From assembly GCA_904066235.2 (NCBI GenBank), contig CAJFCV020000006.1, positions 1,550,001 to 1,614,000 of the forward strand: 64,000 nucleotides of DNA, in the 5' to 3' direction. Shown here one piece after another: positions 10,769 through 49,039 of the stretch; within the stretch, counting starts at the first letter, position 1; each line of letters opens with the position of its first letter. Made by a program: the position numbers and the translations under genes. The notes under the pieces were generated by a model. The model did no database searches. It had not been told where the DNA came from and saw only the letters and a program-made list of their open reading frames with translations. Source of the DNA: Bursaphelenchus xylophilus (taxonomy: Eukaryota; Nematoda; Chromadorea; Rhabditida; Aphelenchoididae).

Positions 10769-13700
10769 ATGAGATCACGACAGCAACATTCCAACCAACC
10801 GCCGCTGCCGCAGCACTTTGTGGAATCGCTGCAACGCCTCTTCAGCTTGTTGGACGCACAGTGCGGCGGGAAGGGGAAAGTCCCGTTGGAATTGGTAAGA
10901 GATGGGGTAAACGCAGGATAATTGTTTTTTTTTTTGACTACAAATATTGTAAAAAAGTCAAAAAATAAAAAAAGATTTTTGAAAAAATCAAAAAAAAAAA
11001 AAAATAAAATAGTAGAAAAAATAAAAAATAAAAATATTAAATCAAAAATAAATTAAAAATCAAAAAAAAAAATCAAAAATAAATTGAAAAATCAAAAGAT
11101 AATAAATAAATAAAATAAAAGAAATAATAAATCGTAAAAAAATTTAAAATAAAAAAAATAAAATAAAAAAAAATTTAATCAAAAATAAAATGAAAAATGA
11201 AAAAAAAATCAAAATAAAAAATTAAAAAAAATCAAAAAAATAAAACAAAAAATAAAACAAAAAAAACAAAATAAAAATAAAAATTTTAAAATCAAAAATA
11301 AATTAAAAATCAAAAATAAAACAAATTTAAATCAAAAATAAATTGAAAAATCAAAAAAATCAAAATCAAAATGAAAAAAGATAAAAAAATAAATAAAAAA
11401 TAATAAAAAAAAATTTAAAATCAAAAATAAATTAAAAATCAAAAAAATCAAAATAAAAAATTTTAAAAAATCAAAAAAAAAAAAAAAATAAAAAAAAATA
11501 AACAATAATAAAAAAATTTTAAATCAAAAATAAATTAAAAATCAAAAAAAATCCTTATTTTTTTCGTTTTTTTATTTATTTTTTTATTTCAGATCGCATC
11601 TCAATGGCAAAATCTTCAACACCAATTCCCCGCTGGCTTTCTGGAATGTCTGGGCCGTGTCGCTCCGCCTGACGGCCAACTGACATTTGAGAGATTTTTG
11701 GCCGGCTTCCGATTGGTCATCTCCAATCGGCAGCGCACGGTGCGCCTGAAAAGGGTCCGAAGCGAGGGAAAGTTGGATGAAATTGGAAAGTAAGTGAAAT
11801 ATTATTGTAAAACAGCGATGATAAAGTTTACTGGAAGAAAGGATAAAATCTTCTCATTTTGTTTTTGCACAGTGCAAAATTACAGTGTAAAAAAGCTTAG
11901 GTTTTTGCACAGTGCAATTTTCTAATTGAAAAAAGCCTACGATTTTGCACTGTGCAAAATTTTAGTTGAAAAAAGCCTATAATTTTGCACAGTGCAATTA
12001 TATAATTGAAAAAAGCCTATGGTTTTGAACTGTGCAAAAATTTAGTGCTGAAGATACTTGGTTTTTTTTGTACAGTGCAAAATTTAGTTGAAAAAAACCT
12101 ATAATTTTGCACAGTGCAATTTTGTAATTGAAAAAAGCCTATGATTTTGCACAGTGCAAAAATTTAGTGCAGAAAATACTTGGCTTTTTTGCACAGTGCA
12201 ATTTTCTAATTGAAAAAAGCCTATGTTTTTGCACAGTGCAATTTTTTAATTGAAAAAAGCCTATAATTTTGCACTGTGCAAAATTTTACGTTATAAAAAA
12301 TATCTCAAAATAAAATTTTTGAAACTTTAACCTTACCCGTAGCACTAAAAAACAAATAACAATTAATTTCTCTCCCAAAAATTTTTCACTTTTTTCTCCA
12401 TCGTCAGCAAAAATTCCCGAAAATTTTCGCTCAAGAAATGGTCCTTTAAACGCTGTTGTTCTTGCTCGCAACTCTTCTTTATTTGTCCATCCGAAGCGAT
12501 CTGGGGATGCGGTGGGAAAAAGTGGGGGGAATATGACCCGGAAATTTTGTAAAAAGAACATTATTTTAGTTTATTTGGGTTAAAGAGGGGATTTTCGGAT
12601 GAGTAAGGGGAAGGTGGGTATTTTATAAACTGAGATTTTGAGTCATAGATGGGAGGAGTTTTTTAATTTTTGCACAGTGCAGTTTTATAGTTGAAAAAAG
12701 CTTACAATTTTGCACAGTGCAATTTGCTTGTTGAAAAAAGCCTACAATTTTGCACAGTGCAGTTTTCTTGCTCAAAAAAGCCTATGGCTTTGCACAGTGC
12801 AGTTTTCTTTTCAGTCTTAGTAGCCTATACGTTTGCAATGTGCAATTTTATTGTTGGAAAAACCTAAAATTTTGCACTGTGCAATTTTCCTGTTGAAAAA
12901 AGCGTATGACTTTGCACGGGGCGGTTTTTTTGTTGAAAAAAGCCTAGAATTTTGCACCGTGCGAGTTTTTCATTTTATAGTTCGAAAAAGCCTACAATTT
13001 TGCACTGTGCAGTTTTACTGTTGAAAAAAGCATACGTTTTTGCACAGTGCAATTTTCTAGGTTAAAGAAGTCTAAAATTTTGCACTGTGCGGTTTTCTTT
13101 TTCCAAAAAAGGCCTAGAATTTTTGCACTGTGCAATTTTCTAACTGAGAAAAGCCTACAATTTCGCACGGTGCAATTTCGTAGTTGAAAAAAGCCTATAG
13201 CTTTGCACTGTGCAATTTTCTGATTGAAAAAAGCCTATGATTTCGCACTGTGCAATTTTCTAATTGAAAAAAGCCTACGATTTTGCACTGCGCAATTTTT
13301 TATTTTAGTAGATGTAAATTTTAGGGGAAATTGGGAACTAAAAATTCTAAGGATAGTTACAAATTACTGTGATATATAAAAGTGAAGGAATAAGACCGAC
13401 TTTGGAATTTTGAAAAGACACTAAACTCGCTTTCTCGAGCTTTTTTCTCACGTCGGCCCCATTTTTTCCATTTCAATTTTTCAAAAAAAAGCGAGGAAAG
13501 CGTTTTAAACGTTTTGCTTCGGAACGACCGGTGCGATCTTGCTTCTCACTCTTATATGATATATCATCTGATAAGGTATTTTTGTTCATAAATTTACCTC
13601 TCAAATCACCCAATCTTATTCCAGCTACGCCCGAATTCCCGCAATGGGCGTGAACGGGCTCCTGGTCGAGCAGCATCGCCCATTCTCCGCGGCCAGCAAC

Positions 13701-16700
13701 GCACGCGCCCTGAAAGCCCAATACGGCTCGCAACCCGCCCTCAACGCCAAATACGTCCAGCCTCCGGCCCCAATTTTGCGGCTACCCGAGTCGCGCGAGA
13801 ATTATTCGCATTACGATTATTTCAAACCCGAGCCATTCCGACGTCCCGCCAGCGCCGGCGCGGGCCATTTGGTGCGGGCTGGGACCGAAACAAACACGAC
13901 GACATCGGATTCTTCGCCCACCGACAGCAATAATTACAGTGTGGTGATGAGAAGTCGGAGCAAGGTAAATTACATTTTGATGTTTAAAATTCGAAGGGAA
14001 GTTTCAACATTTTTTGTTTGTATTTGATATTATTATTATATTATTTATTTTTTTTGCACTGTGCAGTCTAAATTTTGCACTGTGCAGTCTAAATTTTGCA
14101 CTGTGCGGTCTAAATTTTGCACTGTGCAGTCTGTGGAGTCAGAGTTTTGCATAGTACGGACTCAATTTCGACCAAAAAAATAAAAAAAATCGATAAATTT
14201 TTTATTACCAATTTTATCAACCAAATCATCAAGATTTAAATTTTGCACAGTGCGGAGTCAATTTTTCACTAAAAATCGGGCTGCACTGTGCAATATGGAA
14301 AAAGGTCGAACTGAAAATTCGAAAAATTGCTTTTTATTGAATTCGAGCTGTGACAATTTTTTTATTACCAATTTTATCGACCGTAGCATCAAGATTTAAA
14401 TTTTGCACGGTGCAAAGCCAATTTCGCACTAAAAATCGGACTGCACTGTGCAAAAAATTTTAAATTGTTTTGTGAGCTCAAAATGCTTATAAAAATTCAA
14501 AAACTGGTGGAAAAACTTTCTTCAGGGTCCAAGTAATCCATCAACAAAGCAGATTCGTGCTCCAGCCCCTCCACAGACCAAATCCGTTCATAGTTTACAT
14601 CAAGTTTTGAATGGAAATCGCTATCGGCCGGCTTCGCTGACCTCTTCCGGCAGTGGATCATGTGAGTCTTTGCGTTAGATAGCTCTCATTTTTTATATAA
14701 TCGTATTTTACCACAAAAATAGTTTGATTTTTTGTCTAATGTGATTTTTTAAAAAAAAATTTCTAATTTTTCAATTTTTTCATCAGCTCCGATTTCCTTC
14801 AAATTTTGCACACAATGCGAGGATAGGCCACGTATCAATCGCTGAAAATCTTAGCTCGCGATTTGCAGCGAGAGCCGAGATATTTAGCCAACTTTGCGGC
14901 CGAGAGAGCAAGCGAAATGCGGAGAGCAGTACAGAAAAAACACTTTTTTGGCTATATCTTTGCCAGTTTCGCGCGGGAAAAATAGATTTTTTGTGAAAAC
15001 ATTACCCACTACGGTAGAAATAACCACGAAACTTTTCATACCAAAATTCGCCAAAAAATGGTCAAAATTTTCCAACTTTCGACCAAAAAATCTCGGTCAT
15101 TTCTGCAAAGCGCGAGCTCAAAATCTCTGATATTCCTTCGCAAAAATTATTCTAAATTTATACCAAGTTTCATCAAAATCTGAGCATCGAATTATGGTAA
15201 TTGAACCCTCGGTTTGTCGGGAAAATAATGTGGATTTTTTGCAGCAAAATATAGGATAGTTCCCTCGTAAAATTTCCTGTGTTTTTTTCAACTCTTCCCC
15301 TCGAAAGTTCTCCAAAAATTGCGTCGATGAGTCAACGATCACCCTTATTATAGCGCCTTACTTTCAGCCGCACAATTTGCGGCTTCTTAATCGCCCCCTC
15401 TGGAAACGGGATTTCCACCTCGACGAATAATAACTTTTCCGCGATTTTCGGGAAGACATTACGGCTTCTCCAGAAGCTCCGAGGGATCGTTAGCAGGAGC
15501 GTTTTTGGGGTGATTGAAGATATTTTACAGGCATTTTAGGCAATTCAAATTGGATATTCTAAGGCTTGTCAAGATGCCAGGGTTTACTTTAGCTCAAAAC
15601 AAACCTTTTGAATTGGTAAAAACTTGGTCAAAAATGCATTTGCGTGGTGTTGCGAGAAAAGTTCGGGGGCCTTTTTCGCCCTTACAAACCAAAATTGAGC
15701 TGCTAATTTTTACATATTCTGACAGGGGAACTACTCCAAGTAAGACCCTCAGATTTTGATGAAACTTGGCATAAATTTAGAATATCTTTCTCTAAGATAT
15801 GTATATCCGAGAATCCTAGGTCGCGCTTTGCAGAAACGACCAAGATTTTTAGAACGAAAGTCGGCGAAAATTTAAGACTTTTTGCCGAATTTTGGCACGA
15901 AAAGTTTCATGACAATTTCATTTTTGCCAAAAAAGTTAGGAAAACCATTTTTGCCAAAAAAATTTAAAAAAGCATTTTTGCAAAAAAAAATTAAAAAGCA
16001 TTTTTGCCAAAAAAAATAGAAAGCATTTTAAGGGTTTTTTGCCGCAAAAAAGGGTTTTTTTGCACGGTGCGGCTCACAAAAAAAAAGCAAAAAAAAGTCT
16101 ACGCACTTTCTGCCAGGACTACTAGTCTTTTCATAAAGTGCATGGACATATTGTTGTGTGTGAAATGCACAGTGCAAATGTCGATGCACTTTATGAAACC
16201 GCTAATATCTCGCATGTCCAAATAGTTGCAAAAAAACAAGTCTAAATTTAGCCAAATTACTATTCAAATGTCACTAAATACTCGAGCGTTGCACTTTTCC
16301 CACTCCTTCCAAGTAGTATGAACTATAACATTATTATATTTCAAATCGACAACACTGTTTCTAGGTTCCGGTTCGAGTGGAATGGCCGAGGTGCGTTGGA
16401 CCAATTCCCGTCAGTCCTCCTCCAACTCGCCGCCCGACTCCGGCCCCCGATACGCGGAGGAGCATCAGCATCAGGTGGTAGGTTTACAATGTATTTTATT
16501 GCGGGCACAAAAGAAGAAGAATTCATTTACTCCGAACATAACAGCTTATACGTTTCGCCGACTACTTTTTGGCGGGTCGAAAGCCCTTCCGCGAGATCGC
16601 CACACTCCGCTTCTGCAGCGCGTTCAGGCGGTAGATGCCTTGCTCGACGAGGTCGGCCTGCGTCGCCAGGGGCACTGAGCGTTTCCCGGGTCTGAAAATT

Positions 16701-19700
16701 ATGCGAAATTAGAGTCGTAGGGAAACATTAAGGCCACAAAAAGCCGCAAAGAGGGTCGCAGCGAAAAATTAAGGCCAAAAATGGCTGAAAAGAGCGTTTC
16801 AGGGGCCGCTGCGGACTCTTTAGAGCCCGCTGCAAGCTCCTTGAAGCTTGAGGCTCTAGCGACGCCTAGTTACAAGTGACAGCCTAGTTACAAGTTCTCA
16901 AAACTGGAAAATTTTTCCATCCGATTCCCTTAAAAAACCCCTTAAAACGAAAACTTGGGATGCCAATTTTGAGTTCTTGGCATTATGCAACAATGATGTA
17001 TTTGTGGCTCTAATACATCTATGAAAGCGACGAACTTGATCCAGTGGCAAAAACCGTACTTTTTTGTATCCAGAAAGTATCAAAAAATGTGGCAAAATGC
17101 CTCCCTTTCCAACTAAAAACATCCGTCTTTAAGGTCCCTCTCAAAAAGAGCGCGCTTTTAAAATCCCAGTTTTTCACATGGAAAGGGAGGTATTTTGCCA
17201 CATTTTTTGCTACTTCCCGGATGCAAAATGATACATTTTCTGCACAGTGGATCAGATCTGCCACTGTAGAGCCGGCAAAATTGCCTACCTGAAGTTTAAT
17301 CGGCTAAGCGCCACACTCCTCTTCTCCATTCGTGGGTCGGGCTGGGAAAACACCTCCGCCCAGTCGGGTTCTACCTGTTCTTGGGGCTGCATGTACAGAT
17401 ATCTTGCATTTGGGTTCTCTGCTGCCATCTGAAAACAAAATTATGAGCTTTGAGAGATTATTAGCTTGTTTTGACGTCAATTTATATTAACCATGACTTC
17501 AAAAGAGGCGATCGGAAAAAAATCGATCTATCGTTGCGCTACAATGTTCTATGGCTTTGTAATGCATCTTATTCTGTAGAAAGAAGCTTATACTACTAGA
17601 TAAAACTTTGCAAACAAGTACTTTTCCTCTCGGCGACTGAAAAAATTGCAAATTACATTGTACTAGACGCAGCTCCCGGTGGCTCAAAAAATGGCCTGTG
17701 AATTGCAAATCAATCCCTAAACTATGTATTGTTTGATGCCGCTGGGTCAAATAACACTTAGACTTTCAAATAAATGAATGACAAAAAATATCGAGCGTAT
17801 CAAGTGTCAGAATCATAATAATTTTATTGTACTAGGTTCAAAAGTTGAGGAATTATAAAAAAATCGTTATAACAAAACGGCAGACAGAGTTTTTTGAAAG
17901 CGATGACGTGAAATAGATACTAGACAGCGCTGAAAAGCCTTGAGAATTTGGACATTGTGGATTTTGTCGCGTTTTGGCTACGAAAATTGCAAAAGAAGTG
18001 CTTATTGTTAGCACAGTGCATTTTGACCCAAAAATGCAACTTGAACAGTGCATTTCAAAATTTTTTGCGATTCTCATTCTCGCAGCGACAACTTCTTTCC
18101 TTCCAAAGCGCGACGAAATTCGGGGGTGCTTTTTCGGGCCGTATAGTATACACATATTATACCACACAATGACAGACCAGATCCAGTGGCAAAAAACGTG
18201 CCATTTTGCATTCGGGAGGTATCAGAAAATGTGGCAAAATGCCTCCATCTCTAACTAAAAAAACTGCGTTTTGAAGGGTCGCTCGAAAAAATAGCGGGTG
18301 CGTGTTTTAAATCTGAGTTTTTTCACTTGAAGAGGGAGGTATTTTGCCACATTTTTTGATACTTCCCGGATGCAAAATGATACGTTTTTTGCCACTGGAT
18401 CAGGTCCGCCTCAGTAGCCTTATGTAGAGCATTAATTTCGCGGTTATTGGAATATCAGTTTGTCGGGAAAATAATGAGCAAAATTTCACATGGCTTTATT
18501 GAAATGAAAAGCAATTTGATTTTGTCGCGACACATTTTTTTCTCTGGTGTTGCGATTTTCGATGCGACAGAGTGCTCGTTATTTTCCCGACAGACTGATA
18601 TTTCAATAACCCTTTTTATGTCCGCAATTTCACCAAAAAACTCAACCAAAAAACTCACCAAAACCACCTCTCCGTCCTCCGCATTCCTGCCGGCCGTGTG
18701 CGGCGCCGCCTCGATCAGCATGACCATGGAGGTGAAGGCGAAAGTCATCATAATTCTGGGCCACATCTCTTTTGAAAATGGGTTCGCGGGTGCTCTGGCC
18801 CGAAGTTGTACAATCTGCAAGCAGCCGCAATCGCACACCCTTAAATATGGGCCCTCGTCACGCGTCGAGGGAGGAGAATAAATGGACTTGGGGTTTGCAC
18901 GAAACGCCGAGGTAAAGCCGCCGCAATGTATAGGTGTTTATTACAACCGGTAGGGATTCTGGAAGCGGGTGATGCAATTCTCCCGCACGCACGCACAGGA
19001 CATGGGAAATGTTTTTTGGGAGTGACGAAACGCGTCGATAACTGTGATGCGTTGCAAACAAGGACCGCTAAGCCGGTTATCTTGAGTTGGGAGAAGGTGC
19101 AGTGGGAGGAAAACAGATCAAATTAAGTCGATTGTGTTGTTAGAAAGACCTGATTTGGGGAGTATTGCTTATTATGAAATTTGAGAGAATTATTGGTTTA
19201 TGTTAAAAAAAATTTTTTGCACAGTGCAATTTTGTTGAACAAAAAAGCCTAGGGTTTTGCACAGTGCAATTTCATAGTTGAAAAAAGCCTAAATTTTTGC
19301 ACAGTGCAATTTTGTAGAACAAAAAAGCCTGTATTTTTGCACAGTGCAAATTTCTAGTTGAAAAAAGTCTATATTTTTGCACAGTGCAAATTTTTCTGCT
19401 GAATTTTTTTGCACAGTGCGGTTTTTTAGTTGAAAAAAGCCTACAGAATTGCACAGTGCAATTTTGTAGAGCAAAAAAGCCTAGATTCTTGCACAGTGCA
19501 GATTTGTAAAACAAAAAAGCCTAAATTTTTGCACAGTGCAATTTTATATTTGAAAAAAGCCTACAGAATTGCACAGTGCAGACTTGAAGAACGAAAAAAC
19601 CTAGACTTCTGCGCAGTGAGAATTTATAGTTGAAAAAATAAGCCTAAGTTTTTGCACAGTGCAATTTTATAATTGAAAAAAGCCTACGGTTTTGCACCGT

Positions 19701-22700
19701 GCAGTTTCCTAGTTGAAAAAGGCCTAAATTTTTGCACAGTGCAATTTCATAGGACTAAAAAGCCCATATTCTCGCACAGTGCAATTTTGTAGAACAAAAA
19801 AGCCTAGATTTTTGCACAGTGAAATTTCAAAACTACATGGATTTTCATGACGTGCCCTGAGGCAAAATTAAAGTCGTAAAACTAAAGTCGATGCTGCAAA
19901 CGGACTGACCACTCTATGTTTAGTAGGCCGACATTTATATTGCGGACTCAGCAAAAACAACGCCCCCAGTAATTGTCCGATCGCATGATAACGGCAATTT
20001 TGGCATAATTGCAGTGCAAAGTGTTTTTTGGGCGAGGTCAATGGGGCTAAATGGTCGAAATGACGGTGACGATGCGGTCTGAAAAAGGTCGATTTGTCGT
20101 CAAGATGGATGTTTTGCAAAAGTTTTGACGTTTCCGTGCGCATTCGTTGCGATTTTAGAGCGCACTGTGCGTTCGATTGCCCTTTTCAAACCAATTTTTT
20201 GCACTGTGCGGGATGGCAGTGCGTCGTGAAGTTGGTTTGTCGCGGCGCGACAAGTTTTTCGAGCGACAGCGCACTGTGCAAGAAGCCGGAAATTGCACCG
20301 TGCAAACGACTTTCTTGTGGTTTGCACTGTGCAAAAAGGGAAGAATTGAACTTGTCGCGAATGCACTGTGCATTTTTCATTTTGCACAGTGCGCCGTCGC
20401 TCGAAAAACTTGTCGCGCCGCGACGAACCAACTTCACGGTGCACGGCGACGCCGCACAGTGCAGAAAAATTGTTTTGAAAAGGGCGATCGAATGCACAGT
20501 GCGCTCTTTTTTTGGACCCCGCTGGATTTTTATCGCGCGACAAATGCACTGTGCATTTTTCATTTTGCACAGTGCGCCGTCGCTCGAAAAACTTGTCGCG
20601 CCGCGACAAACCAACTTCCCGGTGCACTGCGACGCCGCACAGTGCAAAAAATTGTTTTGAAAAGGGCAATCGAATGCACAGTGCGGTCTTTTTTCGGACC
20701 CGCCCATTTTTTTATCTCGCGACAAGTTGTCGCAACGCCGAATTCATGCACCTGCACAGTGCGGAAACATGTCAAGACTTTTTGGCTCACTCTCCGCAAA
20801 GTGCATGGAATTTTCCCGCGGGGTGCGTTCGCAAAAAAAGTGCATCGCTAGTGCAAAAAAGTGACGTCACAGCGTGCGAAAAAACACAGAGCAAAGGGAC
20901 TATGCAAAATTCTCCGGGCATGGGTTTTGTGCAAATTTGCGTATTAGAAAATCCGATCATCGTACTTGAGTTCCTTCCCTTCTAAGGGCAATGACGTTGA
21001 CTAAAGACCCAAGAAGCCCAGAGACTTACTTGAAAACTACGGTGGCCGCTTAACTATAGGCGCTAGCGCGGAAACGCAAAAGCAGTCAAAACAAGCAACT
21101 AATCCGCAAATCTACCTCACCCTGCTTCCATGTAAAGGCCCGAGTAAAGAAATACAATCTATATATAATACGAAATGCGGCGCTACAACTCCGCGCTCCC
21201 TACAATCCGTCCTTCCTCCCATAAATACTAGTGAATTGTAGCATCAATTGTAGCTTTATGAGGAGCTGAATTGTAGCTACTTGTAAAGAAAAAGATTCAA
21301 AAAAAGTGGGTTGACAAAGGAACAATGCCATTCCATATTAAACTCGACCAATGTTTGCCCGGTGGGGGATTTGTAAGCGGTTCGAAAGTGGGCCAAACAA
21401 TGGGTTAGGGCAGAAACTGTGGTCCAAATGTGTAATGGATACGTTGGAGAGAGGGAGGCGACAAACTAAACCATGACGGGATGAATAATGTAAAATTAGG
21501 GCAAACATGGCAGTGTCGGGAAAATAATGTGGATTTAGCAATCTGTCCGGAAAATAATGTGGATTTCTCAGTCTGTCGGGAAGATAGTGTGGATTTCTCA
21601 GTCTGTCCGGAAAATAATGTGGATTTAGCAGTCTGTCCGGAAAATAATGTGGATTTGTTCAGCCTGTCGGGAAAATAACGTGGATTTTACGGCATGTCGA
21701 GAAAATAATGTTGATTTATCGGTCTGTGCTAGCCGTCGCAAAGCGATGATGGGGGATTTCAAGCTGCGATCAGTCCACATTAATTTCCCGACGGAGTGAG
21801 ATGGCAGTCCAAAGATATCAATATAGATCTCTTTTTTTTGCGAGATTGATCAAACAGTAGCTAAATTTAAAAAATTCTAGGCTAATTTAAAAACCAAAAA
21901 AATTGCAGTGCAAAGATACATAGGATTTTTCTGAATTATTTTTTGGTGCACAGTGCAAAAATATAGGCTTTTCTCAACTAGGGAATTGCACTGTGCAAAA
22001 TTCTAGGCTTTTTTCAACTGCGAAATTGCACAGTGCAATTATACAGTGCAAAGATTGGGTTAATTTTAACTACGCTTTTGCACAGTGCAAAATTCTAGAC
22101 TTTTTTCAACTATGAAACTGCACAGTGCAAACCTATAGGCTTTTTTTAACTACGAAATTGCACAGTGCAAAAAAATTTGCTCAATTCAAGCTTGTCGCTT
22201 ACAGTGTGCAATTTTTCCAACCCAACCGTATTCGAATACAACCCGAGAACATCACAAACCAACTGATACTGCTCAAAAACCCTTGGCGAAACCCGGAAAC
22301 GCCGTCTGAATTGAAATTCTCAAATTTAAATTTATTCCGCCGAGCTCAGCCGGTCCGAGTTCGAGCCCGGGGCTTTATAAATGCGTGCCGCACATCCCAA
22401 GGCCCGCCTCCGAAAGCCGCTTATCGCCGAGCGCTCGCGGATAACGGTGGGAAATTTCGTATGCAGCTGAATGATGAGTTGTAGACGCAACAAGATTACT
22501 CGAAAATTTGCTGGAGAGACGTCTGAGGAGATAAATAATTGGAAAACTTGAACGTATTTACTTTCAAAATTACTGTATAATGACGAAATCGCAAAAAAAT
22601 CTTACTGTAGAATACAGAAAAGCAAAAAAATGACAAATTTATTGTATCTAGTCCTAGAAAAGCTCATAAAATCTACAAAAATTACTTGATTAAACTAAAA

Positions 22701-25700
22701 GAAAAAGGGGTAGAGTATTAAAATCCAGTTTTTCTTGAGTATTCCTCGTAGTATTTGCTTTTGAAAACACAATATTCCCTTTTTTTCGGGGCAATTCCCC
22801 ATAAACTTTGGGTTTTACGAACTCTTCATAAATTTCGAAGCATATAAACTTGGATTCCTCAGCTGGAGAAAAAATAGACGCTTATTTTTCTATCCCTACA
22901 ATGCCGAGTGTAAAATCCAACATAAATTTTCGCACAGTGCAGTACATTTTCCGGCTGCACTGTGCACGAAAAGTTTGTCAAATTTCGCACAGTGCAAAGT
23001 TCAATATAAAATTTTTTGCACCGTGCAGTAAATTTTCCGGCTGCACTGTGCACGAAAAGTTTGTCAAATTTCGCACACTGCAACCTCCAACATAAAATTT
23101 CGCACAGTGCAGTAAATTTGTCGGCTACACCGTGCACGAAAAGTTTTTTAAATTTTACACAGTGCAAAATCCAACAAAAATTTTCGCACAGTGCAGTAAG
23201 TTTTAAGACTGCACCGTGCACGAAAAGTTTGTCAAATTTCGCACAGTGCAAAGTCCAAATAAATTTTTTTTTGCACCGTGCAGTAAAGTTCCACTGCACT
23301 GTGCATAAGATTATGCGATAAAACAAAAACGGCCTCCGCACAGTGCAAAATTTTTCAAGAAAAACATCCACTGCACTGTGCAAAAATTCTTCTAATAAAA
23401 AAGCCTCTGCACAGTGCAAGATTTTTTTCTGACAAAAGGTCGCTGCACTGTGCAATTTGTTCAAAAAAGCGGCCGCGCAGTGCAAAAATTCTTCTAAAAA
23501 GTTTTGCACTGTGCAAAAAAAATGCCAAAAAGCCTTTGCACTGCGCAATTTTTTCAAAAAAAAGCATCCGCACTGTGCAAAAATTCTTCTAAAAAGTTTC
23601 GCACTGTGCAAAACTTTTGACAAAAAGCCTCTGCACTGTGCAATTTTTTTCAAAAAAAAGCATCCGCACAGTGCAAAAATTCTTCTAAAAAGTTTCGCAC
23701 TGTGCAAAATTTTTCAAAAGAAAAACAGTCTGCACAGTGCAGAAAAATTTGCCAAAAGAAAGTCTCTGCACAGTGCAAAAATTCGTCTGACAAAAAATTC
23801 CTCTGCACTGTGCGGCGAAAAAAAGTTTTGCACGGTGCAGGACGAATTTGCATAACTGCGTAACAAATGATGTCAAAACACGGAATGCACGTGGAATTGA
23901 GTTATGACGCAGTAACAAAAGACACCAGACATTATTTTAAGCGTTTATAGGAAGCAAAAAATGTTTTTGAATATTCAAGTTGAAACATTTCGGAATTTTA
24001 TACATGTCCAACGGGGAAAATTGTGACTCTGTGAGTTCGAAATTGATATTCCGCTCGGTATAGAGGTCGAGGTTACGTGCGGGGATATCAAATTTACATC
24101 AATGTGAACAATGATGTATAACAATATAAACATCATCGATATATATAGAAAACCCATAGTAAAGAATAAAAAATGAACTTTGGAACATTGCTAGTCAATA
24201 TCGTCACGTAAAAATTGGAAATTTCAAATTTCCCATCATTTTTTGTAAATTTTTGGCATTCTGTTTCAGGTTTTCTAAAATGCTCAAATTTGTCTGGAAA
24301 TCAATTTTATCACTGTAATAGGGCTGGGAAATGATAGGAGGCAGAGAAATATAAGTTTTTTTTTGCAAGTTAGACCAGTAAAATCTGTTTTGTCATCAAT
24401 TATATAAACTTATAATATGTATATAATATATACTATAAGTCTGTCGGGAAAATAATGAGCACCCTGTCACTATGCCGATCGTGTCGCTGAAGAAAAAAGC
24501 AAATTGATTTTACCACAGGACAATTCATTTTCTCGACGGCTATGCAATTTTCGATGCGACAAAGTGCTCGTTATTTTCCCGACAGACGCAGATCAAGATG
24601 ACTAGCTCAATAAAGCCATCAGAGATATAGTCGTTAGGTAGGCTTAGCGACAATAAAAAGGGTAGACTCACATTTGTTTGGCGAATTACCGACCGGTCGG
24701 CACAACGACACGCAGTTACAGTTGACTTTGCGACTTTATTCGGGCCAAAGAAGAGACCAAAAATTGTACGAGCCATTACTTTTATACCAAATTTTTTGCA
24801 CTTTTGCAGATTTAAAAAAAAGTTCAAAAAAATCAAAAAAAAATTTCTTTGATTTTTGCTCTAAATTTTATAAAAGAACTAGTATAGCCTCCCGATATCC
24901 CTCCCAGAAATCTTAACTAAACCTTTACCCCCATCCACCACCTTCTGTTCCCAAAAATACGTTTGGTTTCACTGGCCTGATCGAATAAACTTCAGGGCTA
25001 ATGCCAATTACTGGGTGTAAATTCAATTTCGCAAAGTTTCCGTCGAAACAGAGCGAAATGTAATTTGTGGGCACGTCAAATGCAAACGCAGAAGCGATCA
25101 ATGTGCAAGAAAATGGTCTTTTGTTCGAACTGGAGAAATCTGCACTGTGCAGGAAACTTTTTTTTTGGCATTTTGAACGCACTGTGCGTCAAAATTAATC
25201 TGCACCGTGCGATAAAAATGAGAGTTTCGAATGCACAGTGCGGCAAGAAAATGAAGCTGCACCGTGCGATAAAAAAAAGAGATTTTGAATGCACGGTGCA
25301 ATAAAAAAAATGTCTGCACTGTGCGATAAAAAACAGTTTTGAACGCACTGTGCGGCAAAAAAATTTTGTCTTTTTTTTGCACCGTGCAAAAAATTTGGTA
25401 TTTGGACCGCCCTGTGCGATAAAAAAGAGTGTTTCTAACGTACCGCACCGTGCGCTGATAAAAAGATAAATCCGCACTGTGCGACAAAACAAAGAGGCTT
25501 TGAACGAACGCACGGTGCGGCGAAAAAATTGACCTGCACTGTGCATTGAATAAAAGAGAGGTTCGAACGCACAGTGCAGCAAAAAAAAAACAAATCTGCA
25601 CCGTGCAATAAAAAGTGAGGTTTTGAATGCACTGCGCGACAAAAAAAGAGCTTTTGACCGCACTGTGCAATTAAAAAAGAGAGTTTTGCAACGCACTGTG

Positions 25701-28700
25701 CAATCAAGAAGAAATCCGCACTGTTCGATAAAAAGCAATTTCGCACGGTGCGGAACATAATTTTGCCCTCGGATTTAGATTCACGGGCAAGATTTAGCCA
25801 AGCCAAACATTACATTGTACTGTATTGCCTACAAAATTTGCACAAAAGCGCCGAATACTCTGAATTGTCGTCAACAATGCTCGTAGTATTTTTTGAATTC
25901 TTCCTCAATCCGAACCCATATGTCAGCAAGAGTACAATATCCTTGATTTTTAAAGAGTTTTGATACAATTTGGGATGTGAAAAGGACCCAAATTGTATTC
26001 AATTATCGTTTCCGCTCGGGTTTTTTAGCACATGACTTGTTTTGAAATACATCGGATAAGATTTATTACAATTTGTAAATGCTAAAATTATCGGAAATTC
26101 ATGGGGGAAAGCACAAAAATACGTTGTTGTAATCTTTTTGCGTTGGCGGTTTGCTAAAAACATTTTTGCACAGTGCAATTTTTGGAGAAAAAAAGTTTGC
26201 ACAGTGCGGATTTCCAAAAAATTTTTGCACGGTGCAATTTTTGGAGAAAAAATTGCACCGTGCGAAACAAATTTTTCAAAAAAAAAATTCTCGCACGGTG
26301 CAGTTTTCAGAAATTTATTGCACAGTGCAATTTTAAAAAAATTTTTTTTTGCACTGTGCTTTGAAATTAAAATTTTGCACAGTGCAATTTTCAGAGAAAA
26401 AAGTTTCGCACTGTGCGATTTTAAAAAAAGTTGTTCGCACAGTGCGGTTTTCCAAAAAGGATTTCTGCACTGTGCAATCTGCAAAAAAAGATTTTGCACT
26501 GTGCGGTTTCCAAAAATTTATTGCACAGTGCAATTTCCCAAAAAAAAAAAAAAAAAAAAAAAAAATTGCAAAATTTTCAAATTGTTTTGCACAGTGCAAA
26601 AAATTATTTTTTGCAAAAAATACCCATATTTTTAGCAATAAGGCCGCAATAATACGGCTAAAAAACCATATAAATAAGCCAAAATTCCAATTTGGTATTC
26701 TCCCTCCCATTTTCTTATTATATTCTCGTTCATTTTCCACCCTCTGAAACGGAATATATAATCGCTGTTTTAGCGAACTTCACGTCATGTGTATAATATA
26801 CTATCGAAATCACAGAGGGTATTGAAATGTCGTAAATGATTAGTGGGTTGAAAAATGTTTTGTCAGGGCTTCATTTTATGGTGGGTAGTGTACAATGCAC
26901 TACGCGATATAATCGAAGAAGTAAAAAATTCGAAAACTGGGGGGTGTAAATATTGCAGAAAAAAAATGTATAATTTCTGTTTTCAAGAAATTTTTCTTTT
27001 TTTTGTTTTTTGAAAAATCAAAAAATCTCAAAAAGTATGGTCAGTACCATGATTAAAATTAAAAACCATCAAAATGAAAAAAAAATCGCTTTTTTCATTT
27101 CTGCACTGTGCAAAAGTCTAGGCTTTTTTCAACTACAGAATTGCACTGTGCGAAATCATAGGTTAATTTGGCCTACAAATTTGCACTGTGCAAAATCATA
27201 AGGCTTTTTTGACTAGATTTTTGCACTGTGCAAGTCCGGAGGGCCAAGATTTCTGCACTGTATGATTTTGTAGTGTAAAATAGCCTAAATTTTTGCACAG
27301 TGCAATTTGTTACTGCAAAAAAGCCTATGGCTTTGCACAGTGCGAAAATTTAGGCTAGTTTGCCTTACAAATTTGCACTGTGCAAAATCACAAGGCTTTT
27401 TTAACTATATTTTTGCATTGTGCAATTCCGGGAAAACTACAAATCTGCACCGTAAAATTCCGATATTGAAAAAAGCCTATGGTTTTGCACAGTGCAATTT
27501 GTTAGTGCAAAAAAGCCTATGGTTTTGCACAGTGCGAAAATGTAGACTAATTTGCACTACGAAATTGCACTGTGCAAAAAAATGTTATCAAATAAAATTA
27601 TTTGAGATGCACAAAAATTACCGTGAAGCTCACGGTAATTTTTTTAAAATCGCCTACGGAAATTTCCAAGTTTCGAAAAAAAAATTTCGAGAAAAAAATT
27701 TTTTTTTGATTTCGATTTTTTGAAAATTTTTTTTTCTCATTACAGTATCTCCCTCGAAAAAAGTATGAGAACTCGCTCTCAATCACCCTACTCAATTTGA
27801 TGTATACGTATGTTATAACATCACATTTTTGACCTTTCCACCCACCCGAATCCCACGTTCTTTCCGGCTTCAATTTCGTCAATTCCAACGCGCAGACACT
27901 TATGCAAATATCCCAAAATATAAAGTAACTCAAAATTTCGCACACGGATTATGTTTCATGCCCTTGTTGGGGGAAAAACCCCCGAATTGAGAGCGAAATT
28001 AAATTTACCGGAGGCGAGAAATTGAATCAAAAATTTGCGTGATGCGATTTCCTGCTAAACCCAATTAACAACATCATTTTTCCAGTATTTTAGAGGGGGA
28101 AATTCGGGGCGAAATTAATTCTGTGGGCTTTTTGGTGTGTGGTAAAAAGTTTTGACGCAGAATTTTTGAATGGTCAATGATCAAAAAATTGGATTTTAAT
28201 TCACGCAATCCACGTAATTTGCATTTACATTTATAGCGTAATTTGTAGCCACCAAGTGTACAAGTTGGAGGCAAAATATGTGTTTTGTTTGGGGAAATAT
28301 GCGCACTGTGCAATTTAGCAGTTGAAAAAAGCCTATGGTTTTGCACAGTGCAGCTCTGTAATGTAAGAAAGGTTATGGCTTTGCACTGTGCAATTCTGCA
28401 GTTGAAAAAAGCTTATATTTTTGCACTGTGCAATTTCCTAGTGCATAAAAGCCTATGGTTTTGCACCGTGCGGATTCATAGTTGAAAAAAGCCTATAGTT
28501 TTGCACAGTGCAATCTCGCAGTTGGAAAAAGCCTATAGTTTTGCACCGTGCAATTTCGCACTTGAAAAAAACTTTTAGAGTTTTGCAACGTTCGATCCCA
28601 TAGAGCAAAAAAGCCTACATTTTTTGAGCAGTGCAGTTTTTTAGTGTAAAACAGCCTCCGGCTTTGTGCTGTGTGATTTCATAGTGTAGAAAAACCTATA

Positions 28701-31700
28701 TTTTTTGCCCAGGGCAGCTTTCTAGTGAAGAAGAGCCTTTCGTTTTGCATTGTGCAAACTTCTACTTGAATTTAGTCTATGGTTTTGCACTGTGCAATTT
28801 CATAATGCAAAAAAGCCTAGATCCTTGCACCGTCCACTTTTTTACCTGCGACCCTCGGAGTTGTCCACAAAAAACGACAGAAAAAATTGCATATATTTTA
28901 CAAAACTGTCAACTAAAAATTTCCCGAGTTTTATCAAAATCTCCACCTTCAAAACGACTGAAAAGAAAACAAAAAAAAACTTTTTTTCATTACCCCAAAA
29001 AAAGGACTAAAATTCTACCATAAAGCACACGTTGTCTTTGACGCACGAACTTTAGGTCTCTTGGGCAGCCGGCCCACCGTATATCCATATTATATAAAAT
29101 GCGGAGCTAGACGAATGAATCCTGAGCATATATGAAAAAATGTAGTCCTTGTCAATTTTTGGATGTGGGAATGTAACAAAATTAAATTGCTATATGCTCA
29201 GGTGGGAAAACCCATAAAGTTTATGGCCGGTTAAAAGACTCGGAGCTCAGAAATTAGTCTGGAACATTATGGTTTGTTACATCATGCACTTTTACTTACA
29301 TAAAAATAGAGTTTTTATACCTGTTTGAAGAGTAGGAAAAAAAATTAATTTGAAAAATTGCACTGTGTGAAAAGCTAGGATTTTATTGCAGTAAGAATCC
29401 GCACAGTGCAAAAATTCAGGCTTTTTTCAATTATGAAATTGCACTGTGCGGAAATCTAGGCTTTTTTGCACTATGAAATCGCACAGTGCAAAGCCATAGG
29501 CTTTTTTGCTCTACAAAATTGCACTGTGCAAAAATTTAGGCTTCTTTTCCTTTCAAAATTGCCTGTGCGAAAAGCTGGGATTTTATTGCAGTAAGAATCC
29601 GCACAGTGCAAAACTGCAAGGTTTTTTTGCTCTACAAATTTGCACTGTGCAAAAATTTAGGCTTTTTTCAACTATGAAATTGCACTGTGCAAAAATTTAG
29701 GCTTTTTTCAACTATGAAATTGCACTGTGCAAAACCGTAGGCTTTTTTGCCCTACGAAATTGCACTGTGCGAAAAAATTCAATTATCAAAGCTTGTTGAG
29801 AACCGTAAAAATAACCAAAACAATTTAATAATCGTATGAAAGTCTCATACGCAAATAAATATTAGAAAATGCAAGTCCCCCATAATTCCCTTATCCGTCC
29901 TGTCGTGCCATGCGGATTAGGCTCCGTCAAAAATAACATGCGTCTTTTTATGCAATATTCCCGGTAGTTGGACGCGATCGGTTAATCCGGTCATGTTCTC
30001 AAGATTGCTGTACAAATTAAAGTGGATTTGGCAATTCACTGCGTGAATTGTAAATTTAGTTTTTTTTTCGATTTTTTTGCGGAATTACGGAAAAGTTGCG
30101 GTCTATTTTGAAGGAATAGCATTTTCATAAAGTGCATGGACATTTGCTATCTTTCCGGCAGTGCATTTTTAACTTTCTCCCATCCTTGTCGCCAATGCAC
30201 AGTGCATTTTTCTCTTTTCGCACGGTGCAAAACACTAAAAAGCCGTTTGCACTTGCAAATTTTTGAGCAAACCGCGGCGATATTTCGATGCACACTGCAA
30301 AAACAACAAAAAGATGAAATGCACAGTGCAAAATGTGAGGTTTTTGTGCACAGTGCGAACCGCGACGGAAGGCGCACGCACTTTATGAAAAAATTAGTCT
30401 GCCGGGAAAATAATGTGGATTTGCCGCAGCAGTCGAGCACCAAATCTCCAGACGCGGCTAGACTTCGCAAAGAAACGATGGTGCAAGACAGGTATCATTG
30501 TATTTTCCCGACACATTGATAGTTCCACATTATTTTCTCCACAGACTTATCAATCCACATTATTTTCCCGGCAATCTCATAAATCCACATTATTTTCCCG
30601 ACAAACTGAAAAACCCATATTATTTTCTAGACAAAAAAATAAATCCACATTATTTTCCCGACGGACCCATAAGTCCACATTTTTCCCGACAAACTAAAAA
30701 ATCCATATTATTTTCCCGACAGACCGATAAATTCTTATTATTTTCCCGACGGACCCATAAGTCCACATTTTTCCCGACAAACTAAAAAATCCATATTATT
30801 TTCCCGACAGACCGATAAATCCTTATTATTTTCCCGACAAACCCATAAGTCCACATTATTTTCCCGACAAACTGAAAAACCCATATTATTTTCTAGACAA
30901 AAAAAATAAATCCACATTATTTTCCAGACAGACCCATACAGTAGTCCGATTGTATCATTTCACGTCATTGTTACAAAACTTCCTGCCAATTCAAAGAACC
31001 TTCTGGGAAGCGGCGACAAACCAAAAAATTTTTAAATATCACCCGTAAAAATTTGAATTGTTCGGGCCGAGCACGCAAATCCCCGTTTCTACGTGCCGTG
31101 CATTCGGCGGGGCACGTATAATAGAAAGGGCGGCGCCATCGGCGAGCTATAGCTCAATTTATTGTTTTGGCGACCCGTTTCGCGGAAGAATGACTTCATT
31201 TGTCATGTGCGGCGTGCAATCGCTTGCATGCCAAGATTACGGTAATAGGCAAGATTATACGAGGAGAAACTAATGTATTAATGTTAATCATAGACAAGTC
31301 GAAGAGTGTAGAACACACAAGAAGTGGAGGAGCGAAAATTTATTAAAAATTTTATATTTGGAAGGGTTTGCAATGTAAAAAAATGAAGGGAAATATAAAA
31401 AATAGAAAATATGAACATGTGCTGGATTTTGGATAATGAAAAATTTTAGGGGTTTTTTTGAGAAATTGGTCGGGAAATCGGTCGAAATTTTGTAAAATTT
31501 TGTCAAAACTAGGCCAAATTTATAAGGTACTTGAGCCAACTGTGACGCTCAGATTTCTATCTAATTTTGCACAGAGCTCGGACATAGGCCCCACATCAAT
31601 TACTCAAAATTTTAGCTTGCAATTTACATGGGAAGCCGAGATAGAAAAAAATGATTCTAGATTTGTCCCAACTTTCATTGCACATTGCACGTTAGCTTTG

Positions 31701-34700
31701 GCGGCATATCAGTCTGTCGGGAAAATAATTTGGATTCTTAGCACCTTGTAATCGCCCATTGACGGCTAGCTGCAGCTGGGAATTGGCGAACGACGGAGAC
31801 GAGACGAGTCATTTTTCCGCGTCAAATCCACATTATTTTCCCGACAGTCTGATAAATCGATATTATTTTTACGACAAACCAATAAATCCACATTATTTTC
31901 CCAACAAACTTATAAATCCTCATTATTTTCCCGACAAACCATAAATCCGCAGTATTTTCCCGACAGACTATAAAAATCCACGTTATTTTCCCAACAGACT
32001 GATAAATCCTCATTATTTTCCCGACAAACAGAATAAATCCACGGTATTTTCCCGACAGACTATAAAAATCCACATTATTTTCCCGACAGGCCGATAAATC
32101 GACATTATTTTCCCGACAAACCAATAAATCCACATTATTTTCCCGACACACCAACCCATGACCGTAAATCCCCCAGAAACCGAAAACCTTGAATTGTATT
32201 ACATTACCCACACATTCGTTCCTAATTAGTCGAAACTTGTAAACACCACTAGGCCCTGTTTTTAGAACGTACAGTATTCCGCGATTCTCGGAATTTCCCC
32301 TCAACTCTTCTAAAATTATATTCCGCACACGGTGTTTGTTTGGAAACTTCCTCATTTGTTCGAGGGAAGACTTGAAAAACAATTATTTTTAAAAATTCAA
32401 ATTCGTGGCTCATTCGCCGAAAGCGTGAGTCACATGGGAAACTCGGGAAATGTAACATTTGGGGATGACTTTCAAAGGTGTGAGAAGTTGTATAAGCCGA
32501 GAATTTGAGTTAAGTTTGAAGTGATTTTAGGCCACGATTTCTGACTAGCGATGATTTCAAGGTACGTCAAGCAAAGTTGAATGAAAGTTAACACAAGTTT
32601 GAACATATTTTCCAACAAGACAGGTATCAGTCTGACGGGAAAATAATGTGGAATGATCGCAGAAAAACGCCTCGTCGGGCACCAAATTTCCAGCTCTGTC
32701 GGACAGCGGCAACAGGGAATTTGAAGGTGCGCCGAATCCACTTTATTTTCCCGACATATTGATGCTCCAAATTCTATGCTCAGATTCTGAGGAGGCTTGG
32801 CAAAAGCTTCGAAATTTCGTCTGAGAAATATGCGAAAGTCCAAGCTTGGCTCCACAAGAATGAATGAGATTTTTAGGTTGAAAATACGAAAAAAATGTCG
32901 CACACATTTTTCGAATTTTAGCATGACATTTTTCTTACATATTTCTGCCGTAGAGGGTAATGTTTCCACAAAAAATCAATTCTTTCCGTTCGAAACTAGC
33001 AAAGATATGGCCAAAAATTTTCAGTTTTTCTCGCTGGCTGATCTCCTCATCTCGCGTACCAAATGATGGTTGAATATCTCAGCTGCCTTGTATAGCGCTA
33101 GCTACAAAATTCCAAGCTTTTTATGAGACGCACAGCGTAGACTGAAAGAAATAGTGCATTATGGGTGAAAATAAAGTAGGCATGCTTCAGATGGTCACTA
33201 AATAAAATTAAAGCCGTAAAGCTGACAGATTACGATCTAGCGTCGGCAAGGGACAACGAAACACTTCCTTTACTCGGAAAAGGTTTACTCTAGGCGTAAG
33301 AGTGCTGTTCAAAATTCGATAAAGGCCAATTAAAAATTGCGAAACCTATGATGAATCATTATACCATCTATCAATGCTGACTGCTGTCCGCAGAACATAC
33401 GATAAATGAAGAAGTAATCCGTCTCGGGGTTTTATGCCGTATCTACCATATTCGAATTAGAAGACATATTGTAAACAGACAGTTGATATTTCAGCGATGA
33501 AAGAAGAGGAAATTAAAAATTAAGACTTGTAATAGGATGTAAAGCATGGTTTCCGCAAGGCATTTAAACCCTATGTCGAAAGGAAGTTTGAGTAATTGCT
33601 TCAACGACTGTAAAAGAACTTTGCTATATAGTGCTTCGTGGACGAAAAAATGATGAAAGTAAAATACGAAAATGCGAGCTCTGTCAACTACAGTATGTAT
33701 AATAAAAGATAGTATATATGATGAGAGCATAGATGCGTTTCTACCGGAAACATTACTAGACAATAACGTCACATAACCACACAAAATTTCAAATTTCCCG
33801 CCATTTTAAAATTTTTTTGGCATTCTGTTTCATCCACTCTAAAATGACGAAAGTTGTCCGAAAATCAATGCAATCACTGCGCTAGGCCTGAAAAAGTAAT
33901 AGGAGGTAAAAAATGTACAGTTGACTGAAGTTAGAAGCAATTTGACTTTGCAGCGACACAATTTATTTTCTTCGCGGCGAATATTCGATGCGGCTCATTA
34001 GTTTACAGAAAAACTGATAGTATAACATATGCTGTCAAGACCTTGGTAGAGGTCAAGTAATAAGGGTCCCTAATCTAGTTCTACCTAAGATCCCAAGCCC
34101 TATGCGAATACAACGACAACGACTATACAAACGAGCGACAATACAAACTAACTATGCCCTAGGCAACAACTTCACAAATGAACCCACAATACTTGAGGAA
34201 CCAACTTCACAAGAGCTGACCATAGACACAATACTAATAGACTACAGTAGAAATACCATTTATTGCAACTTCCAACCGGGAAAAACAAACACAAAAATAA
34301 TCCCATAATAATTGGCGATTTCTCTTCCTTTTATACCAATTTGTCGGTCATTCCGTGGGAATATGCAAATTCGCACGCGAAGTCGTGACAATGCTAGCCT
34401 GCTTCTTTTATGTCACATATATAGAAAGACCTAGCTTACAAATCCCCACCCACGACAGACATTTGGCTCATCTTTGTTCCCTTCTTTTAGCAGTCAAATC
34501 TTGGCACTTAAACTCAAAAAAAACCTCACCCCAACCCCGACAGTAAATCCTTTTTGTCTTCAAAAGAAGGTAAAATATGTACCGTAGTATTCTTCGCAAA
34601 GTTACCGTAATCCGATGAGATTAAAGCTCACATTTAATACTTTTAACAACATATTATTACCTGATTCCCAGACCCCATGACGCAGTAAATGTTGCATATG

Positions 34701-41100: not shown

Positions 41101-44100
41101 ACATTTTTGCACAGTGCAAAAAAATAATTCAAAAAAAAAATTTTTCCGACCGATTCTTTTTTCACACCGTGCAATTTTCTAGTCAAAAAAAGCTTAGAAT
41201 TTTGCACCGTGCAAGCATTTCGCTTACATTGAGCAAATATCCGGTTCAAAACTCGAGAACACAATCCGCCGCGCTCCCGCATTCTCAATGACGTCCTTGA
41301 GGATGCGGTCGATGAACTCGTTGCGTTCGAAATAATTTCGGCATTCATGTTCCCCGTCCGCCAGCTCCATGGGGTATTTGATTTCGACGTTGAAGCCCGT
41401 GTCCACGGGTACCCGTTTCAAAACGTCCACCAGAGTGGGAAATGGCCTATGGTCGTCGGATTCGTCGGGGTCTCCGGTCACTTTTAGCATGTTTCGATTC
41501 TCCTGGGCCTGATAGTGCTCGACCTAAAAAATTTTTGCTTTTTTTTAAAAAAAAATTTTTTCATTTTTCAAAAAAAATTTTTTCCAGAAAATTTTTAATT
41601 TAAAAAATTCTAATAAAAAAATCAAAAAAAATTTTTTTGATTACTCTTTTATACTATACCAACCAATTCCCCCACTTCCCTGATCAAAAATAAGCCAAAA
41701 TTGAACCGTGGTCCCGTGGCGTAATGGATAACGCGTCTGACTTCTAATCAGAAGATTGCGGGTTCGACCCCCGCCGGGACCTAGTGGTTTTTTTGCGATT
41801 TTTGAATTGGCAGTCGTGTTTTTTGAGGTATCTGTGGAAGTAAACAGATGGAAATGTTTATTTCTGAACTCAAACCGACATAAATAAAATCAATTTTTAC
41901 AAAAATTTTGAGGGAATTTTGCACAGTGCAAGTTTATAGTGCAAAAAAGCCTAGATTTTCGCACAGTGCACTGTGCAAAATTTTTTTGGCCAATAAATGT
42001 TAGATTTTGATGAAACTTGGGTAAAAAATTAGGTCGTAATTTTACTAGAAGTTTTTAACATGCCATTTTGGGCAATCGCCGAGATTTTTTTGCCAAAAAC
42101 ATCAAAATTTTTTTTTTTTTCAAAAATGCCCCCATCTCCCTCCAAAACTCACATGAAGCAGCCTGAGTTGTTGCAATTTCAAATCCTTGACCGCAATCTC
42201 ATGATAATCGCTCATCGCATTCTGGAGACCTAAACTTGGCCTTTGCGGCCCACTCGTTCCAACCGCCGCCGCCTCCGTTTCCTTCGACAAATTAGCGCCC
42301 GGCGAGCATGTGGATCGTTTCGCCACCGCGACGAGCACATGGAAGTCGTGGAAGATGATGGCAATCTTGTCCTTGGTCAACTGGACATCGAATTCCACGT
42401 AATCCGCGCCTTTTTTCGAGGCGTGACTCAGCGAATGGATTGTGTTTTCACGTACTGTGGAGGTCCTACAAAAAATTTTTAATTAAAAAGAAATAAAAAA
42501 AATTTTTTTTTAAAATTCACAGTGCAAAAATCTAGGCTTTTTTGCACTATGAAATCGCACCGTGCAAAAACGTAGGCTAAATTCAACTAAAATTTTGCAC
42601 GGTGCAAAATCATAGGCTTTTTTGCACTATGAAATCGCACAGTGCAAGATCATAGGCTTTTTTACCCTAAAATTTTGCACGGTGCAATATCATAGGCTTT
42701 TTTCACAAGGAAAGTACTTTTATGGGGGCTCCTACTTTTTGACGGGACATATCTCAAAAAATCAGAAAAAATGTGCTGATCAAGGATATATAAATCTTAG
42801 CTGCCCATTTTAGGTTTTTAGGGGTGAAAACTCAATCGGAAGTTGACTTAAAGTCCTATATGAACCCCTTTTCGCTTAATTTTTCACGGGTTTACAATTT
42901 TTATTTTGGCTTAGAATGGTGTTTGTTGAGTTTCTAAGACGTAATAAGACAGTCTTGGTCCAAAAATTTATTTTTCCGACCTTCAACTTCAAAAAAAGTT
43001 GATTCAGCCCAAAAGGGAAATCGAACCCGTGCGGCATTCCCCCTCTTGAATCCCAGACTGCGGCACTAACCACTCGGCCACACCGCTCTCTTCCGAAGGA
43101 AGAGACCGAGTGCGCTTTTTATCGTTTCGAATGCCTGCGCCTTTTGTAGGGAAATTAAGCCAGTTTTTGGGCATTTTCACCCCTAAAAACCTAAAATGGG
43201 CAGCTAAGATTTATATCCTTGATCAGCACATTTTTTCTGATTTTTTGAGATATGTCCCGTCAAAAAGTAGGAGCCCCCATAAAAGTACTTTCCTTGTCAA
43301 CTAAAATTTTGCACAGTGCAAAATTATAGGCTAAATTCAACCATAATTTTGCACGGTGCAAAAAAAAAATTAATTTTAAAATTTTGCACAGTGCAAAATT
43401 CTAGGCTTTTTTGCACTATGAAATCGCACAGTGCGAGATCATAGGCTTTTTTACCCTACAATTTTGCACAGTGCAAAAAACACGATTTTCATAATTTTTA
43501 TGGCCTGAAAACAGCCTACGAATATTTTCCGATCTCCAAAACATTATATAAATTCACTTTTCAGACGTTTTTTCCAAAAAAATATTCCTTTTGTCACAAA
43601 AAAGCGCTTCTCTCTTCTCCCTTTGCCCGACGATTTGTTTGAAGAAGAGAAAAAGAGGGACTCCTACCGTGGTCCCGTGGCGTAATGGATAACGCGTCTG
43701 ACTTCTAATCAGAAGATTGCGGGTTCGACCCCCGCCGGGACCTAGTGGTTTTTTTGGGGTTTTTTTGGTAATTTTCTTAATTCAAATCGTATTTTAGATA
43801 GTCTGTTTTTGTTGCATATTGTTTTACAAAGCATCTCAGACTATGAAATTTGGTTTTTTGACTAAAAATTTGCTATTTTTTCATTTTTATTAGAAAAATG
43901 TTAATTTTTTGGAGAAAACTGTTGAAAAATATGCTTTTTGACAATGAAAAATCCAAAACATCTATAAGTCATTCAGGGTAAGGATTTTTCCACCCAAACC
44001 TACTTGGTATACGAATTGCCAAAGCCTCTGTGGCCCACTTCCACCGTTTTTCTCTTCTTCCAATGCCTCGTATAACAATGTTCCATGGTTAAGGGCACCT

Positions 44101-48842: not shown

Positions 48843-49039
48843 GGCCGATGGTGTGCCCACTGGATGCAATATTCGGATTTTCGAGGGAAATTGGACCGAA
48901 TTTCGCGTACAAAAGTTGGTGAAATGAAGGGATTTGCGGGGAAATGGGGGAAATATGCAAAATTTTAGGGACAAAAAAAATTAAAATATTGAAAAAAAGT
49001 GCATCAGAAGGTCTGCCTCATTAGTTTTTACAAGAAAAT

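Follow-up and report, generated by a model that had tools for sequence, protein, structure and literature searches.

A probable NLP-2-type RPamide precursor gene nested in antisense within an intron of a SAPCD2-like gene of the pine wood nematode

The RPamides of nematodes are described in PMC7303124 as typically carrying Ala at position 3, Gly at position 5 and Arg at position 6, and those of Caenorhabditis elegans as activating the receptors GNRR-3 and GNRR-6 and affecting quiescence. According to the same text NLP-22 promotes quiescence and NLP-2 movement, both via GNRR receptors, and the peptide NLP-23-1 (LYISRQGFRPA) is inactive on GNRR-3 and GNRR-6 (PMC7303124). Another member of the family, Mi-NLP-2 (SSLASGRIGFRPA), appears among the unamidated peptides in PMC5344539. 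Here we consider a gene of this kind in Bursaphelenchus xylophilus. The window analysed is a stretch of 64,000 nucleotides (nt), bases 1,550,001-1,614,000 of contig C6 in an assembly of 78.25 Mb and 8 contigs, and three short exons on its minus strand very probably constitute a genuine NLP-2-type RPamide precursor gene, nested in antisense orientation within the fifth intron of a SAPCD2-like gene. This would provide a likely function for an unnamed protein of the pine wood nematode, encoded by one of the two RPamide genes found in its genome.

The nested gene, its peptides and its relatives

A first-pass annotation of the window had proposed minus-strand exons of 108, 140 and 130 nt giving a frame of 125 amino acids, and this model is correct to the base: the exons join in frame to 378 nt, that is, 125 codons and a TAG stop, both introns are of the GT-AG type, and the KR sites and two peptides stand where they were placed (Table 1). 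Equally accurate was the placement of the whole gene inside an 18.6-kb intron of a gene on the opposite strand, whose flanking exons also join in frame. As a model, however, it is not new: the identical 125-amino-acid protein has an NCBI entry, under B. xylophilus, as a product without a name. The predicted splicing is supported by homology and by that entry.

Residues 5-18 of the precursor are hydrophobic, the peak 12-residue window falling at residues 7-18 (mean 1.95), in the manner of a signal peptide. An acidic spacer precedes KR-SVALSRLNFRPG-KR, which is followed by a linker of 22 residues and then, at the extreme C-terminus, by KR-SVAISRKGFRPA-KK. Nematode RPamides (NLP-2/-22/-23/-46) are recognised as amidatable by RPG followed by a dibasic site. 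Of the two peptides, both of which had been said to match the RPamide style, the first ends in FRPG-KR and has this arrangement, but the second ends in FRPA-KK and lacks it; SVALSRLNFRP-NH2 is, as predicted from the precursor, its sole amidatable product. The cores, SRLNFRPG and SRKGFRPA, both have Arg6, and both peptides have Ala3 (SVALSR..., SVAISR...), as is typical of RPamides, but residue 5 is Ser in each instead of the usual Gly. We do not take Ser5 as excluding membership, Gly5 being typical rather than defining. Among the 322 cores considered below, 8 depart from Gly at this position, 4 of them from Bursaphelenchus; the amidation Gly is missing from 3 of 6 Ser5 cores and from 37 of the remaining 316 (p 0.027), a weak association on numbers too small to rely on.

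The search which returned the identical protein yielded one further match at E up to 10, a counterpart in the sister species B. okinawaensis with 44% identity over 100% of the query (E 1.4e-11 in a database of 5.77 billion sequences). The conservation of the peptide cores that was looked for in this species is clear for peptide 1, whose core KRSVA[LI]SRLNFRPGKR differs by one residue between the two species (the first B. okinawaensis core being SVAISRLNFRPG-KR), and partial for peptide 2, where the last peptide ends in FRPA in both but reads SVAISRKGFRPA-KK in one and YVLARTGFRPA-RK in the other.

More distant relatives emerged from two successive profiles, the first built from the two Bursaphelenchus proteins and the second from the eight matches of the first. 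Those eight comprised the two queries themselves, precursors from Ancylostoma, Cylicocyclus, Parastrongyloides and Toxocara, all at E 1e-10 or better, and two unnamed ones. The second profile, for which scoring was confined to the 7,991 candidates with the most words in common and matches were accepted at E up to 10, recovered 103 proteins; these were not dereplicated and contain fragments, NLP-86-type and unnamed metagenomic proteins. They include proteins labelled NLP-2 in the database from C. briggsae, C. brenneri, Ascaris, Ditylenchus and Meloidogyne graminicola, as well as a protein of C. elegans, entered as 'Neuropeptide-Like Protein' and bearing similar cores, which in our own reading is presumably NLP-2. 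The closest sequence relatives of the B. xylophilus precursor are thus NLP-2-type precursors, and the motif F[SA][EQ]PDxR directly before the first cleavage site is common to Bursaphelenchus and Aphelenchoides.

If general neuropeptide biology applies, the precursor would enter the secretory pathway, a prohormone convertase of the EGL-3 type would cut at the KR sites and a carboxypeptidase of the EGL-21 type would trim the products. The Gly of peptide 1 would be turned into the amide of SVALSRLNFRP-NH2, and peptide 2, with Ala at the amidation site, would leave the precursor as a free acid, SVAISRKGFRPA-OH. The amide would most likely act on a GNRR-3/GNRR-6-type receptor (related to those for gonadotropin-releasing hormone and adipokinetic hormone) and modulate locomotion or quiescence, the acid most likely being inactive at that receptor.

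In favour of a genuine NLP-2-type gene we count the closed frame, the NCBI protein, the B. okinawaensis counterpart, the profile matches, the hydrophobic N-terminus and an AATAAA hexamer beyond the stop codon. Several considerations weigh on the other side. The NCBI protein of B. xylophilus may itself be a mere prediction. Activity at GNRR receptors is uncertain because both peptides lack the conserved Gly5. The orthology to nlp-2 is presumed from resemblance, such precursors being short and repetitive. By BLASTP score (50.8 and 49.3 bits) the Aphelenchoides proteins come slightly below two from Caenorhabditis (54.7 and 51.6 bits). Finally, no Pfam model matches the precursor, although this says little, as Pfam likewise matches nothing in the C. 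elegans relative (P0029).

The amidation glycine and the naming of the gene

The amidating enzyme requires a C-terminal Gly, and copies without it must therefore be released as acids, if they are released at all. Cores were counted by regular expression, so that those without FRP or a dibasic site escape. On this basis the 103 proteins contain 321 cores, the last residue being Gly in 281, Ala in 35, Ser in 4 and Arg in 1, which leaves 40 without Gly. A looser expression (322 cores) found at least one non-Gly copy in 33 of 101 core-bearing proteins and exclusively non-Gly copies in 4, both Aphelenchoides NLP-2-type precursors included, that of A. besseyi having an additional FRPG without dibasic site. 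KR follows all 285 RPG sites counted ahead of a dibasic pair; KK or RK follows 5 of 41 non-Gly sites. One protein of unnamed source (P0057) has three cores, all without amidation Gly (SVAVSRKNFRPA and, twice, SAAFGRLRFRPA).

The position of the affected copies can be examined in 22 of the 103 proteins, from 11 genera, which we take to belong to clade IV; all come from named species outside Aphelenchoididae, and isoform P0044 was omitted. Calculated after the pattern had been noticed, and with the head of a tandem run set by spacing (in Ditylenchus and Panagrellus heads so defined lack strict homology), non-Gly copies amount to 13 of 20 heads and none of 57 other copies (Fisher p 4e-10, related species being counted as independent). 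By genus the figures are 5 of 10 for heads and 0 of 11 for other copies (p 0.012), five genera having Gly at the run heads (Ditylenchus, Globodera, Halicephalobus, Heterodera and Panagrellus). A weaker pattern extends over all 103 proteins, Gly being absent from 24 of 80 run heads, from 12 of 104 copies that stand alone and from 4 of 137 in internal or last position. In the open-access literature, as far as its text was available to us, we found no account of such an unamidated pattern across nematodes, the single cases of NLP-23-1 and Mi-NLP-2 apart.

It is possible, and we advance it tentatively, that the FRPA or FRPS acid sister peptide is a signal in its own right instead of a worn-out RPamide. 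Such a signal would have a fixed head-of-run place in several clade IV genera and would have replaced the dibasic-flanked NLP-2-type products of Aphelenchoides. In Bursaphelenchus it would make up half of what is produced, the nested gene releasing an amide and an acid from one precursor to two different receptors. The opposite interpretation, to which we attach a similarly low probability, is that the precursor is decaying, its second copy having lost the amidation site by drift and the first being the last that works. Only a single copy is amidatable, where most of the named relatives have at least two, the two Aphelenchoides precursors keep Gly on no dibasic-flanked copy, and in Bursaphelenchus the linker that separates the two peptides may once have been a further copy, since degraded. 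In addition, a second RPamide gene could take over: an NLP-86-like gene on contig C3, at about 10.0006-10.0010 Mb, has four GRWGLRPG cores, all with amidation Gly. Against decay stand the retention of FRPA together with R6, F9, R10, P11 and a dibasic site in both Bursaphelenchus and both Aphelenchoides species (in part a product of selection by the regular expression) and the 22 proteins of other clade IV genera, in which every non-Gly copy heads its run, as drift does not predict. The recurrent loss of the amidation Gly, tied to one position in several genera, deserves a second look, and the nested gene is one instance of it. The recurring change offers a ready comparative test of whether RPamide signalling needs the C-terminal amide and of whether the acid form has a receptor of its own.

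The NLP-86-like gene accords with the report of nlp-86 in B. xylophilus in one survey (PMC8764417). The nested gene does not itself belong to NLP-86, its cores SRLNFRPG and SRKGFRPA departing from GRW[GQ]LRPG. Protein searches of the B. xylophilus genome, in which NLP-46 was not searched for, returned these two RPamide genes and a weak match on C4 (E 0.91); their sensitivity was limited, an A. fujianensis query having missed the nested gene and a Steinernema query having caught one stretch at E 0.023. A degenerate DNA pattern for SVALSR-like cores was uninformative in the same genome (376 matches, fewer than the 553 of the reversed control).

The first-pass annotation had assigned the peptides to the style of NLP-2/22/23. 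Kinship with RPamides is borne out by the profiles, but the resemblance is to NLP-2 rather than to NLP-22 or NLP-23. Since nlp-22 and nlp-23 counterparts are reported in the survey from Caenorhabditis only (PMC8764417), NLP-2-type appears the better label. The naming is nonetheless disputed: the survey concedes clashing names in earlier work, and an earlier paper applies nlp-22 to genes of other nematodes (PMC4654748). Several precursors with RPamide cores bear misleading database names, for example Kininogen-1, Short neuropeptide F, FMRFamide neuropeptide and Secreted RxLR effector peptide.

We regard it as improbable that this gene corresponds to nlp-23 of C. elegans, with an amidated RPamide and an ISR-x-GFRPA acid kept together since before Caenorhabditis and Bursaphelenchus split. 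Peptide 2 (SVAISRKGFRPA) and the NLP-23-1 sequence given in PMC7303124 do share ISRxGFRPA. Against this stand the reported restriction of nlp-22 and nlp-23 to Caenorhabditis and the finding that the named relatives retrieved are NLP-2-type; moreover, FRPA copies occur in many NLP-2-type precursors, so that this ending can be shared without common descent. The NLP-23 precursor of C. elegans, not itself compared, was not recognised among the profile matches.

The host gene and its surroundings

Eight exons on the plus strand, separated by seven GT-AG introns, join in frame to encode a host protein of 494 amino acids. Pfam SAPC2_N matches residues 13-90 (E 2.7e-19, 69.2 bits against a cut-off of 27) and Suppressor_APC residues 308-379 (E 5.7e-5, 23.7 bits, slightly below its cut-off of 25.4), and from these domains the protein is identified as a predicted SAPCD2 homologue. 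At the score applied, tandem arrays occupy 4,769 nt (26%) of host intron 5, and repeats therefore account for part of its length. Arrays are numerous between 19213 and 32154, and in many of them the repeated unit measures about 30-40 nt and has the palindrome TGCACTGTGCA, or else TATTTTCCCGACA, at its centre.

Table 1. Coordinates of the nested and host genes, numbered from the first base of the window
Feature	Position	Strand	Description
Neuropeptide exon 1	18659-18766	-	108 nt; start codon, signal-peptide-like N-terminus MWPRIMMTFAFTSMVMLIEA, start of propeptide; identical database protein
Neuropeptide intron 1	17429-18658	-	1,230 nt; GTGAGT...TTTTCAG
Neuropeptide exon 2	17289-17428	-	140 nt; acidic spacer, first KR site, peptide 1 as far as FR
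Neuropeptide intron 2	16692-17288	-	597 nt; GTAGGC...TTTTCAG; phase 2; interrupts the peptide-1 core, FR / PG
Neuropeptide exon 3	16562-16691	-	130 nt; PG-KR (end of peptide 1), linker SVPLATQADLVEQGIYRLNALQ, KR, peptide 2 SVAISRKGFRPA-KK, TAG
AATAAA, polyadenylation-signal-like hexamer	16495-16500	-	starts 62 nt past the stop codon; stops 20 nt before host exon 5 (opposite strand)
Host gene, SAPCD2-like	10769-36490	+	exons 10769-10894, 11593-11789, 13625-13964, 14526-14661, 16365-16474, 35075-35221, 35747-36069, 36385-36490
Host intron 5	16475-35074	+	exactly 18,600 nt; encloses the entire neuropeptide coding sequence

Most likely the nesting reflects this long, repeat-rich intron and not joint function, and we see no need to invoke a functional link between the two genes. 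A functional nesting, in which antisense transcription of the neuropeptide gene would regulate the SAPCD2-like host, or the reverse, seems to us very unlikely. It could appeal to how closely the neuropeptide gene, at its 3' end, approaches host exon 5, with 20 nt between that exon and the AATAAA, and to the rarity of overlapping genes in the worm, about 12 times fewer than expected (PMC2330155), so that the arrangement is no matter of course. The same source, however, describes nested pairs as preferred among overlaps (PMC2330155), and the host intron is long and rich in repeats. As to a chance reading frame with no gene behind it, for which the shortness of the exons could be pleaded, its probability is practically nil, the B. 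okinawaensis homologue (E 1.4e-11) and the family-wide profile matches having refuted it.

Neuropeptide intron 2 also contains, at 17038-17253, a palindromic repeat resembling a miniature inverted-repeat transposable element; a search of the B. xylophilus genome gave 2,484 candidates, and among the 40 scored the best full-length others showed about 81-86% identity. A stretch of intron 1, at about 18180-18400, looks by eye like the same repeat. Retention of intron 2 as an amidation switch was considered and set aside: with a phase-2 intron starting GTAA or GTAG, a stop just past the donor of exon 2 is to be expected in any case.

Elsewhere in the window, an open frame at 58440-58877 on the plus strand resembles a transposase fragment, which we take to be mariner-like (Pfam DDE_3, E 2.7e-4, below the cut-off). 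On the minus strand between about 41200 and 48900 there are a GDPD domain (42120-42482, E 4.3e-19) and a CBM_20 starch-binding domain (48684-48980, E 3.9e-8), perhaps parts of a single GPCPD1-like gene.

Comparison with described RPamide precursors

The NLP-86-like gene on contig C3 encodes an RPamide precursor of the same genome, but it is a separate gene and all four of its cores are amidatable. C. elegans NLP-23-1, as given in PMC7303124, has ISRxGFRPA without amidation Gly, like peptide 2 of B. xylophilus, but belongs to a precursor which one survey reports from Caenorhabditis only (PMC8764417). Mi-NLP-2 of Meloidogyne incognita is likewise an unamidated FRPA peptide, and of an nlp-2 gene (PMC5344539, Table 1); it differs from peptide 2 in having Gly at the family position. 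In three Meloidogyne congeners the copy matching Mi-NLP-2 heads a run of three cores, of which the other two keep Gly.

The NLP-2-type precursors P0062 (Aphelenchoides fujianensis) and P0074 (A. besseyi) share with Bursaphelenchus the stretch F[SA][EQ]PDxR before the first core and a last core of the form SVAxxRxGFRPA. They differ in having kept Gly5 and in having three cores (one without dibasic site in A. besseyi), and carry the amidation Gly on no dibasic-flanked core, whereas Bursaphelenchus retains one amidatable core. With the NLP-2-type precursors at large, among them those of C. elegans (P0029), Ascaris (P0024) and M. graminicola (P0048), the B. xylophilus protein has in common a secreted-type organisation with KR-flanked S-x-A-x-x-R-x-x-FRPG cores; it departs from them in having two cores where most named relatives have three or more, Ser for Gly at position 5, and a last core ending in Ala. 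The nested gene is, all in all, an ordinary and previously unnamed member of a known family.

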